Of a stretch of DNA of 64,000 bases, positions 51,488-54,083 are shown in pieces. How positions within the stretch are numbered: the stretch's first letter is position 1; each line of letters begins with the position of its first letter. The notes under the pieces are model-generated. The model was not told the DNA's origin. It did not search any database and worked only from the letters and a program-made list of their open reading frames with translations. The DNA is from Halanaerobium saccharolyticum (lineage in GTDB: Bacteria; Bacillota; Halanaerobiia; Halanaerobiales; Halanaerobiaceae). The stretch lies in the NCBI RefSeq assembly GCF_003053565.1, contig NZ_QAXS01000001.1, positions 124,001-188,000 on the forward strand, given 5' to 3'. The translations under genes and the position numbers were made by a program.

Positions 51488-51893
51488 TTTACTTGCTCTT
51501 GATCCCGGCCGGGATAAAGTCGGGGCAGCAGTTCTTTCTTTTAAAAGTGCAGAAAAAGAAAAGACAATTATTAAAAAAGATGAGCTAATAGATCATTTAG
51601 AGGAGATTTTCAATCACTATCAGGTAAGAGAAATTGTCATCGGAGATGGAACCGGGGCTGAAGAGGTTAAAAAAATGGTTGAGAACACTTTTCCTGAGCT
51701 CAAAATCAGCCTGGTTGCAGAAGAATTTACAACCGAAGAGGCTCAGGCCCGATATTTAAAGGAAAAACCGATGTCCAACTACGAAAAGCTGCTGCGAAAA
51801 ATAGTCAGCTGGAAGGTCAAAAAACCACTGGATGACTATGCAGCTCTAATAATTGGTGAAAAATATCTAAAAAAGCTTGACAAAAACAAATAA
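51480..51893 (+). CDS. RuvX/YqgF-like RNase H-fold protein
   Basis: The 137-residue cytoplasmic protein begins MSDLLALDPGRDKVGAAVL, the first strand of the YqgF/RuvX RNase-H-like fold with its first acidic residue. It has IVIGDGTG in the middle and EEFTTEEAQARYL near the later catalytic region, then a DDYAALIIG helix with a terminal acidic pair. RuvX is linked to 16S rRNA maturation; pairing with DUF3084 genes is also seen in other lineages. It overlaps the DUF3084 frame by eight bases. Confidence 0.7.
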   Translation: MSDLLALDPGRDKVGAAVLSFKSAEKEKTIIKKDELIDHLEEIFNHYQVREIVIGDGTGAEEVKKMVENTFPELKISLVAEEFTTEEAQARYLKEKPMSNYEKLLRKIVSWKVKKPLDDYAALIIGEKYLKKLDKNK

Positions 51894-51935
51894 TACCATT
51901 ACAATGATGTTTGAGGATAAAGAAGTAAATTAAAT

Positions 51936-51965
51936 TTGACTTTTCAGCTCTAAAGCTGTTATAAT
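51936..51965 (+). promoter_or_regulatory. Sigma-A type promoter of the SLH-porin gene
   Basis: TTGACT (51936-51941), an 18-base spacer and a perfect TATAAT (51960-51965). The predicted transcript start near 51972 leaves a leader of about 240 bases. The spacer holds a small dyad (CAGCT/AGCTG). Confidence 0.75.
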
Positions 51966-51971
51966 TTAATT

Positions 51972-52210
51972 TGCAATACAAAAGTTTAATCAAGCTTATA
52001 AACTCGACGCTAAAATGCGGCGGAAAGGAGGTGCCCCCGAAGCTGCGGAGTGGTAGAGTTATAAGGGTTCTAAGATACTTATCAAAGATCTTTTGGACAG
52101 ATGAAGAGGAAACTAGGTAACTCGCTCGGATGTCCTCTATGATTGCATAAGTTATTAGAACTTATATATCGAAAGAAAAAGAAAGATAACAATCAAGGGG
52201 GATTTTAATA
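51972..52210 (+). promoter_or_regulatory. Long structured 5' leader of the SLH-porin gene, class unknown
   Basis: Two closed domains are visible. Domain 1: CTTATAAACTC (51995-52005) pairs with GAGTTATAAG (52056-52065), with one bulge. Domain 2: GTTCTAAGATACTTAT (52067-52082) pairs with ATAAGTTATTAGAAC (52147-52161). Inside domain 2, GGACA (52095) can pair with TGTCC (52131), or instead AGAGGA (52105) with TCCTCT (52133); the pairings are mutually exclusive. A Shine-Dalgarno-like AAAGGAGG occurs inside domain 1 (52024-52031). I do not recognise a known riboswitch class. The 3' part (52162-52196) is unstructured, A-rich and leads to the real ribosome site. Confidence 0.6.
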
Positions 52211-53974
52211 ATGAAAAAACTTACAATTACAATTGCTTTACTGTTAGTCGTAGCATTAGCTATGCCTGCATTTGGTCAGTCATTCTCTGACGTACCAAGT
52301 GATCACTGGGCATATGATGCAATTAACAAACTGGTTGCTGCTGGTATCGTCGAAGGTTATCCTGATGGCGAATACAAAGGTGACCAAAACATGACTCGTT
52401 ACGAAATGGCTGTTATGGTTAGCCGCGCATTAGACAACATTGTTGCTGAGCAAGAAGCTCTAGCTGACGAAGTTGACGCTATGGGCGAAGGTCTAACTAC
52501 AGGTCAGGCTGAAGACGTAACTGCTATCGTTAAGTCCTTAATGGAAAAGAACACTTCTGATAGCTTAAGCGATGCTCAAGCTGAAGAAGTAGCAGATATC
52601 GTTGATGCTTTAACATTCGAATTACGCGCTGAGCTTAAAGTATTAGGTGCAGACGTAGATGCTTTAGGTAAAGACGTTGCAGATTTAGAAGCTAAGGTAG
52701 ACGGTCTTGACATCCCAGAAGATAACATCGAATGGGCTGCAACAGTAGATACAGTTGCTGAGGCTGGTAATTATACAGGTTCTGGTGTAGATTTAATTCC
52801 TGGTGACGAAATATCTGAACAAGACTTCTATCAGGAAGCAGGAATTAGTCTTTCCGGTAGTGTTGCTAATGCTGATTACAACTTAGATTTAGTAACATTA
52901 TTTAATGGATTTGAAGATTTCAGTACTACAGATGACAATAGCTTTGCATTAGATTCAGCTTTATTAGAAGTTGCTTATAACGGTGTAAACGTTAAGTTAG
53001 GTGACCTGAATGAATATGCTGTAGAAACATATTTTGTAAATGAAGAAGATGTTGAAGGTATGGAAATGACAGCTAATTATCAGGGTTATCATGTAAAAAC
53101 AATTGTTACTTCTTTAGATGCTGACACAATGTATGGTATTACAGCTGGTAGAGAATTTGACATTGCTGATGTAACTGGTAAAGTATATCATGCTAGAAAT
53201 AATGGTGCACTGCATACTATGATTGCTGGTGAGGTTACTGACTTTGCTCTAACAGAAGAAGTTGTCATGGGTGCTGAGGTAGTTTATGATAATGAAACTG
53301 AAGGTATTTATGTAACTGCTGATGGTGAAGTAACAGCTGTAGAAGCATTGACACTAAAGCCATTTGTTAACTATGCTAATGAAGACTTTGTACCATATAT
53401 GGGCGACTTAGATGATGAATTTGGTGATGGTACACAAGTAGTTCAGGCTGGTGTAAATGCTGATTATGTATTAAATGAAGATAATACACTTCATGGTGGA
53501 TTCACATTTACAGATAATGATGCTGCTGAAAATAAAATGGTAGCAAGTGGTGGAATCACCAATACTTATGGTGACTTTACTAATAATGCTAATGTAGAAT
53601 ATACTATGAATGATGAATATACTGCAGATCAGGAAAAAATCTTAGTTGAAGCAGATACTGCTTTTGCTTTAGATGCAAAAACTGATTTAACTGCAAATGT
53701 TAGTTATGAAACTGCTGATCATATTGCTGATACTACAGTATTTGGTGTTGGTGCAGACTATGCATGGGATGATTCTCTTGTATTAGGTGCTGCTTACACT
53801 TATAAAAATGTAGATGAAGGTATGAATTATAGTTTTGTTAAAGCTACAGCAGATAAAACTCTAACTGAAAATATCAGTTGGAATACTGAAGTTAACTACA
53901 TTACAGGTGAAGATGCTGACGCTGTTGAAGGCGAAGGTAATGGCGTAAAAACAGCATTATCAGTAAGCTTCTAA
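52211..53974 (+). CDS. SLH-domain outer-membrane porin (OmpM-like)
   Basis: The 587-residue protein has a signal peptide (KLTITIALLLVVALAMPAFG). A single SLH domain follows (about 24-75, FSDVPSDHWAYDAINKLVAAGIVEGYPDG and MTRYEMAVMVSRAL), then a coiled-coil segment (about 80-170). The long beta-barrel (about 190-587) is Asp/Asn-rich, with repeated strand patterns such as ADYVLNEDNTLHGGFTFT, and ends KTALSVSF. This matches the OmpM-type architecture, where the SLH domain binds a peptidoglycan-linked polymer and the barrel sits in the outer membrane. GGGGG precedes the ATG. A consensus promoter and a long leader suggest strong, regulated expression. Confidence 0.87.
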   Translation: MKKLTITIALLLVVALAMPAFGQSFSDVPSDHWAYDAINKLVAAGIVEGYPDGEYKGDQNMTRYEMAVMVSRALDNIVAEQEALADEVDAMGEGLTTGQAEDVTAIVKSLMEKNTSDSLSDAQAEEVADIVDALTFELRAELKVLGADVDALGKDVADLEAKVDGLDIPEDNIEWAATVDTVAEAGNYTGSGVDLIPGDEISEQDFYQEAGISLSGSVANADYNLDLVTLFNGFEDFSTTDDNSFALDSALLEVAYNGVNVKLGDLNEYAVETYFVNEEDVEGMEMTANYQGYHVKTIVTSLDADTMYGITAGREFDIADVTGKVYHARNNGALHTMIAGEVTDFALTEEVVMGAEVVYDNETEGIYVTADGEVTAVEALTLKPFVNYANEDFVPYMGDLDDEFGDGTQVVQAGVNADYVLNEDNTLHGGFTFTDNDAAENKMVASGGITNTYGDFTNNANVEYTMNDEYTADQEKILVEADTAFALDAKTDLTANVSYETADHIADTTVFGVGADYAWDDSLVLGAAYTYKNVDEGMNYSFVKATADKTLTENISWNTEVNYITGEDADAVEGEGNGVKTALSVSF

Positions 53975-54005
53975 ATATAGTTTAAATATAATATAGAATC
54001 TAAAC

Positions 54006-54035
54006 AACCCGGGGGATTTATCCCTCGGGTTTTCT
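54006..54035 (+). terminator. Intrinsic terminator after the SLH porin
   Basis: AACCCGGGGGA (54006-54016) pairs with TCCCTCGGGTT (54021-54031), one G-U, around a TTTA loop, followed by TTTTC. It lies within 50 bases of the next start codon. Confidence 0.75.
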
Positions 54036-54083
54036 ATGTTTGCAGGAAAAAAATACTATTTATTAAAAGGAGAGAAATTTGAT

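Follow-up and report, generated by a model that had tools for sequence, protein, structure and literature searches.

The closest described relative of the RNA reported here is the SLH motif, a riboswitch candidate from Thermovirga lienii (Stav et al. 2019, BMC Microbiol 19:66, PMC6429828). The main text of that paper describes 80 examples, about 60% of them upstream of SLH genes, in Synergistaceae, Clostridia and Negativicutes, and it makes no mention of Halanaerobiales, Deinococcota, Atribacterota or pairing between an anti-Shine-Dalgarno (anti-SD) strand and a Shine-Dalgarno (SD) sequence. Our RNA forms the leader of an SLH-porin gene in a 64,000-nt stretch of Halanaerobium saccharolyticum DNA (the whole stretch analysed, called the window below). 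Like the SLH motif, it lies upstream of SLH-domain genes: at 66 of the 69 loop-pattern loci checked in Deinococcota and Negativicutes, directly at 27 of 28 Synergistota loci, and directly at 61 of 75 distinct loci chosen with a covariance model (CM), most of the others preceding a signal-peptide barrel-like protein. The taxa agree as well: the present RNA occurs in Synergistota, Negativicutes and other Bacillota, with Clostridia represented only by the titles of metagenome-assembled genomes (MAGs). Because gene, position and taxa match, the two very probably belong to the same class, the comparison covering these three features. The first-pass annotation could not match the leader to a known riboswitch and considered it possibly new. 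The first half of this stands, as Rfam 15, run on the window, the leader and homologues from several phyla, gave no relevant match at or near the gathering score; the word "new" is too strong, because the SLH-gene-associated candidate was published in 2019. Three things go beyond what was described for the SLH motif: the spread, the proposed anti-SD mechanism and, in relatives, an RNA that may switch porins. SLH, S-layer and Deinococcus go unmentioned in later surveys of noncoding RNAs in 26 and 50 genomes.

For the 5′ region of slpA in Thermus thermophilus, also a long leader in front of a gene for an SLH protein of the outer membrane, post-transcriptional control and protein binding are reported in work by Fernandez-Herrero (1997) and Castan (2001). 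The apical loop of the present RNA stands before an SlpA-like gene in Thermus- and Deinococcus-like genomes; the Thermus work, however, concerns one species, and most Deinococcota copies checked lack the putative decoy of domain 1 (D1). The leader has the layout of a riboswitch, with a folded conserved domain (the near-invariant loop of domain 2, D2) and a putative expression platform (the covarying anti-SD:SD pair). As in anti-SD-sequestering riboswitches, an anti-SD strand pairs with the SD, and conserved domain and expression platform are distinct parts; here, in contrast, the conserved hairpin follows the anti-SD, the pairing is long-range and an SD-like decoy precedes the anti-SD. An RNA thermometer would occlude its SD by pairing that melts with temperature and would need no conserved loop; in this leader, pairing of the SD was found, and the invariant distal loop would not be expected of a thermometer.

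The promoter (near-consensus), the leader of about 240 bases and the SLH-porin identity of the gene, all proposed in the first-pass annotation, are confirmed (Table 1). The porin has a Pfam SLH match (E = 8.5e−15), and the PDB entries matched by its N-terminus are 7zgx (SlpA of Deinococcus radiodurans) and two SLH porins, 8bym and 8bys. Several congeners have the same promoter arrangement 5′ of the leader. Because the upstream neighbor, a RuvX/YqgF-like open reading frame (ORF), ends at 51893, the leader is intergenic. A second promoter-like site (TTGACA-17-TACAAT, 51877-51905) lies within the 3′ end of the RuvX-like gene and would lengthen the leader. On the 3′ side of the porin gene, CCCGGGGGATTTATCCCTCGGGTTTT at 54003-54030, read by eye, resembles an intrinsic terminator, and the porin gene is therefore probably transcribed on its own; behind it, at 54036, comes a small barrel-like ORF.

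Table 1. Positions of the leader elements and of the porin gene in the window
Feature	Positions	Strand	Remarks
Promoter TTGACT-18-TATAAT	51936..51965	+	TG before −10; near-consensus, 11/12 matches
Whole 5′ leader	51972..52210	+	about 239 nt; start near 51972 inferred from promoter
D1	51995..52066	+	P1 51995-52005/52056-52066; inner helix 52017-52021/52042-52046
Putative SD-like decoy AAAGGAGGUG, D1 loop	52024..52033	+	matches 16S anti-SD complement; no start codon behind
Anti-SD strand CCCCC	52034..52038	+	complementary to 52197-52201; swap test
D2, long hairpin	52067..52161	+	helices 52067-52073/52155-52161, 52077-52082/52147-52152, 52095-52099/52131-52135; apical GAG/CUC
Apical hairpin GAGGAAACUAGGUAACUC	52106..52123	+	near-invariant core common to several phyla
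SD AAGGGGG of porin gene	52195..52201	+	partner of 52034-52038
SLH-porin gene (OmpM/SlpA-like)	52211..53974	+	587 aa; candidate regulated gene

The fold of the single sequence is modestly better than that of its shuffles (z = −2.24), and the homologues carry the structural evidence. In alignment A1, made with MAFFT from sequence alone, 90.1% of the cells pair and 18 of the 48 pairs are changed on both sides, a level reached by none of 500 shuffles. When the partners are slid by 1 to 3 columns, pairing falls to 37 to 44%, a control in which A1 is favored, as the structure was derived from it. Pair counts in the CM alignments A2 and A3 are inflated, because both were made to fit the structure. 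Helix P1 of D1 is paired in 98.6% of cells, with double changes in three pairs. In an alignment of about 30 leaders of the order, the D1 loop reads AGAAAGGAGGUGCCCCC(C), and the D2 hairpin is closed by GUUCUA/UAGAAC and tipped by UGAG-GAAACNNGGNNA-CUCA; in the window, the D2 apical loop is GAGGAAACNNGGNNACUC. The two closed domains described in the first-pass annotation thus show covariation far beyond chance, and their stems are conserved upstream of orthologues. By eye, the apical loop looked like the 16S h44/h45 linker (GUAACAAGGUAAC), but the variable positions disagree and the idea was dropped.

Within the genus, a DNA search found the leader at 79 to 94% identity in all 11 other genomes, with second copies in two; in other families the matches are partial, and the distance to the start codon is constant. 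Model R1 matches 31 of the 38 genomes of the order (26 of the 29 good ones), and the positions agree with those of the SLH-porin genes from the porin search, which answers the suggestion that the motif be sought upstream of OmpM-like genes of Halanaerobiales. Among 299 genomes of the phylum, R1 also matches other classes, mostly before products that start with a signal peptide and PFxDVPxxHWAYDA. Model R2, which matches the window at 51992-52164 (E = 3.3e−19), finds the RNA in 86 of the 398 genomes from the phylum to which the window belongs, in 80 of 121 Synergistota and in 37 of 50 Atribacterota. When 84,980 species genomes were scanned for AGGAGGTG-N(66-96)-GAGGAAACNNGGNNRCTC, at least 119 stretches matched; by title, the matches listed include Halanaerobiales, Limnochordia, Negativicutes, Atribacteria, Deinococcales/Trueperaceae, Synergistetes and other Bacillota. 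Among these listed matches, 84 were read, and in about 80 of them an SLH protein or another secreted barrel-like protein is encoded 55 to 215 nt further on. The rest, taken as chance, consist of a contig end, L188, a MAG of Betaproteobacteria and a single viral contig (L281), which has no SLH gene. Searched for by itself, the loop pattern turns up in 103 of 111 genomes of Deinococcota, the phylum of the Trueperaceae genome, and in 129 of 150 Negativicutes genomes, compared with 4 hits of the reversed pattern in each set. These groups are much like those reported to carry OmpM, namely, Negativicutes, Limnochordia, Halanaerobiales and Deinococcus-Thermus (PMC10628300).

Across the 75 CM-chosen loci, twelve positions of the 16-nt core AGGAAACNNGGNNACU have at most two exceptions, with four more due to an A-to-G change. 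R2 was trained on diverse copies, with 55 of at least 75 source loci coming from the scan that required the loop and AGGAGGUG, and the near-invariance of the loop is partly built in because R2 learned the loop from these pattern-selected copies; this bias affects the R1 matches and the Halanaerobiales alignment less. Most of the Negativicutes and Deinococcota copies checked have no D1 with AGGAGGUG. At the Deinococcota loci L292-L320, the apical loop is kept and no AGGAGG decoy was seen upstream; SDs such as CACCUUAGGAGGUG or ACACCUGAAGGGGGUGU are predicted to form local SD-hiding hairpins there. Some genomes (those of L164, L165, L181, L190 and L235, and Negativicutes) have 2 to 7 leader copies, one for each of the tandem porin genes, and from copy to copy the anti-SD and SD change together. 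The leader is a real, highly conserved RNA structure that recurs before the same kind of gene in several phyla, and the view of it as a structured cis-regulatory leader of the SLH-porin gene is strongly supported by homologues, covariation and gene association.

A complementarity missed in the first-pass annotation connects D1 with the start of the gene: directly 3′ of AAAGGAGGUG stands CCCCC (52034-52038), complementary to the GGGGG of the SD (52197-52201). A GGGGG-type SD is found only once among the 65 ORFs of at least 120 aa in the window, the sole set used for this comparison, and in this genome the duplex has only 5 G-C pairs. Across the homologues, the bases that follow AGGAGGUG are complementary to each gene's own SD, with compensatory changes: anti-SD and SD read CCCCUUGA/UCAAGGGG in Trueperaceae, CUUGGUAG/CUACCAAG in Atribacterota, ACCCUAAGU/ACUUAGGGG in a Limnochordia-like genome, CCUUACGGUU/AACCGAGGGG versus CCUUAAGGUU/AACCUAGGGG in sister MAGs, CCUUAGGUU/AACCUAAGG and UCAGCAA/UUGCUGA in Negativicutes and CUCUCGAC/GUUGAGAG in a further compensating pair. 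In 87 distinct leaders, the native duplexes average −12.5 kcal/mol and the permuted ones −9.7 kcal/mol (standard deviation of permuted means, 0.24), and none of 20,000 permutations is as good. Relatedness among the 87 leaders lowers the number of independent cases; it does not itself create complementarity. The signal is limited to 12 to 16 nt starting at the end of AGGAGGUG. Among 28 Synergistota leaders, with little variation in the two strands, a small gain is still seen (38 of 20,000 permutations). The covariation of the two strands shows that the D1 anti-SD segment and the SD pair with each other, which is evidence of contact and not of the direction of regulation.

AAAGGAGGUG, kept in D1 across phyla, would serve as a decoy or docking site. 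A local decoy:anti-SD hairpin was rejected as the conserved alternative state: in all 87 leaders the decoy is a far weaker partner of the anti-SD than the SD is, and in Atribacterota and some Negativicutes it hardly pairs, so that it does not qualify as a conserved switch partner. In leaders without the D1 decoy, local pairing of the SD is slightly enriched (0.53 versus 0.47, P = 0.02), a weak effect to which composition may contribute; the decoy leaders show no such enrichment (0.41 versus 0.42).

Because a short stretch of the leader pairs with the ribosome-binding site of its gene, the leader very probably controls the amount made of this major envelope protein. We propose that it is probably a cis-acting translational control RNA in which D1 would hide the SD and the D2 loop would be the receptor. 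The D1 loop would present the anti-SD strand, which would pair across about 160 nt with the porin SD, hide it and repress translation. A trans-acting factor (a protein, a ligand or the SLH protein itself) may be received by the apical loop GAAACNNGGNNA and shift the balance between the closed (anti-SD:SD) and open states, relieving or enforcing repression. The AAAGGAGGUG that precedes the anti-SD probably docks 30S subunits, as a stand-by or stabilizing site or as a competitor in the switch. The same duplex could instead loop out the leader and promote initiation, with the strong SD AAAGGAGGUG brought about 8 to 10 nt before the AUG as part of a discontinuous ribosome-binding site. The geometry is compatible with this: the linker between decoy and duplex is 0 to 2 nt in most leaders, the 3′ end of the duplex lies 7.5 ± 2.6 nt before the AUG and the virtual GGAGG-to-AUG distance has a median of 10 nt. 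However, the gene-proximal partner is SD-like and at normal spacing in nearly all clades, which such a site does not require, and we consider it unlikely; an anti-SD mutant would be expected to behave in opposite ways under sequestration and with a discontinuous site.

The STAB-SD of Bacillus cry3Aa is an SD-like 30S docking site that stabilizes mRNA. It is a GAAAGGAGG-type site without a start codon, and such a site is present in the leader. Conceivably, then, the leader senses no signal, and its structured 5′ end and docking site (AAAGGAGG) protect a very abundant mRNA from decay, as the perfect SD-like AAAGGAGGUG without a start codon, conserved in D1, and the rigid D2 would allow; yet this leaves both the covarying anti-SD:SD pairing and the near-invariant apical loop unexplained, and we regard it as quite improbable. 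The first-pass annotation had pointed to two mutually exclusive inner helices, GGACA/TGTCC and AGAGGA/TCCTCT, and to a leader peptide of about 28 codons; the mechanism would be an exchange between the helices, or attenuation through the peptide, whose start lies behind AAAGGAGG. Both complementarities and one 29-codon frame are present in this genome, and GGACA/TGTCC belongs to the conserved fold. AGAGGA/TCCTCT (52105-52110 with 52133-52138), on the other hand, is genus-specific and would break the GAG...CUC hairpin that is near-invariant across phyla. The peptide frame is not conserved even within the genus, as it is broken by length changes between CCCCC and CCCCCC and spans 6 to 29 codons in relatives. 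No intrinsic terminator was found within 51972-52210, and transcription attenuation was rejected on this ground. The exchange or leader-peptide mechanism is largely refuted, with very little probability left to it.

For small-RNA control, also raised in the first-pass annotation, relatives offer a concrete lead: some of them carry SLH-porin genes of a second kind (type 2), whose leader has diverged and keeps the apical loop. In front of type-2 genes lies an element of about 110 nt (loci L078-L083, L093, L095 and L102), closed by the 12-bp stem CCAGGAGAAA/UUUUCUCCUGG and a U-run and absent from the window's own genome. Two segments that it displays are complementary to parts of the type-1 leader, ACCCCUUGUUGUU to the SD region AACAAUCAAGGGG and GGGGGGCACC to the D1 loop GGUGCCCCCC; the predicted duplexes with the D1 loop reach −28 to −40 kcal/mol, compared with about −16 kcal/mol for shuffled elements. 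From these predictions, the element is possibly a porin-switching RNA, either trans-acting or derived from the leader. Upstream of it, L078-L084 have a TTGACA/TATATT promoter followed by the palindrome TGACCGGTCAGTCA, which resembles a TetR-family operator.

With these results, an orphan riboswitch candidate gains a defined, mutable output (the anti-SD:SD pair) and a defined candidate receptor loop, and both are therefore directly testable. More tentatively, we suggest that the leader may be an ancient RNA sensor that predates the split of Deinococcota, Synergistota, Atribacterota and diderm Bacillota and was kept with the gene of the outer-membrane tether, that its near-invariant 12-nt loop may recognize a universal envelope or translation signal, and that, in some Halanaerobiales, the 5′ RNA of a second porin operon may pair with it in trans and switch porins. 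In diderm Terrabacteria the outer membrane is tethered by OmpM/SlpA proteins, which hold a central place in the debate about the origin of diderm and monoderm envelopes. A regulatory RNA that stays with the OmpM/SlpA gene across phyla is independent evidence on the question of whether inheritance of the system was vertical.
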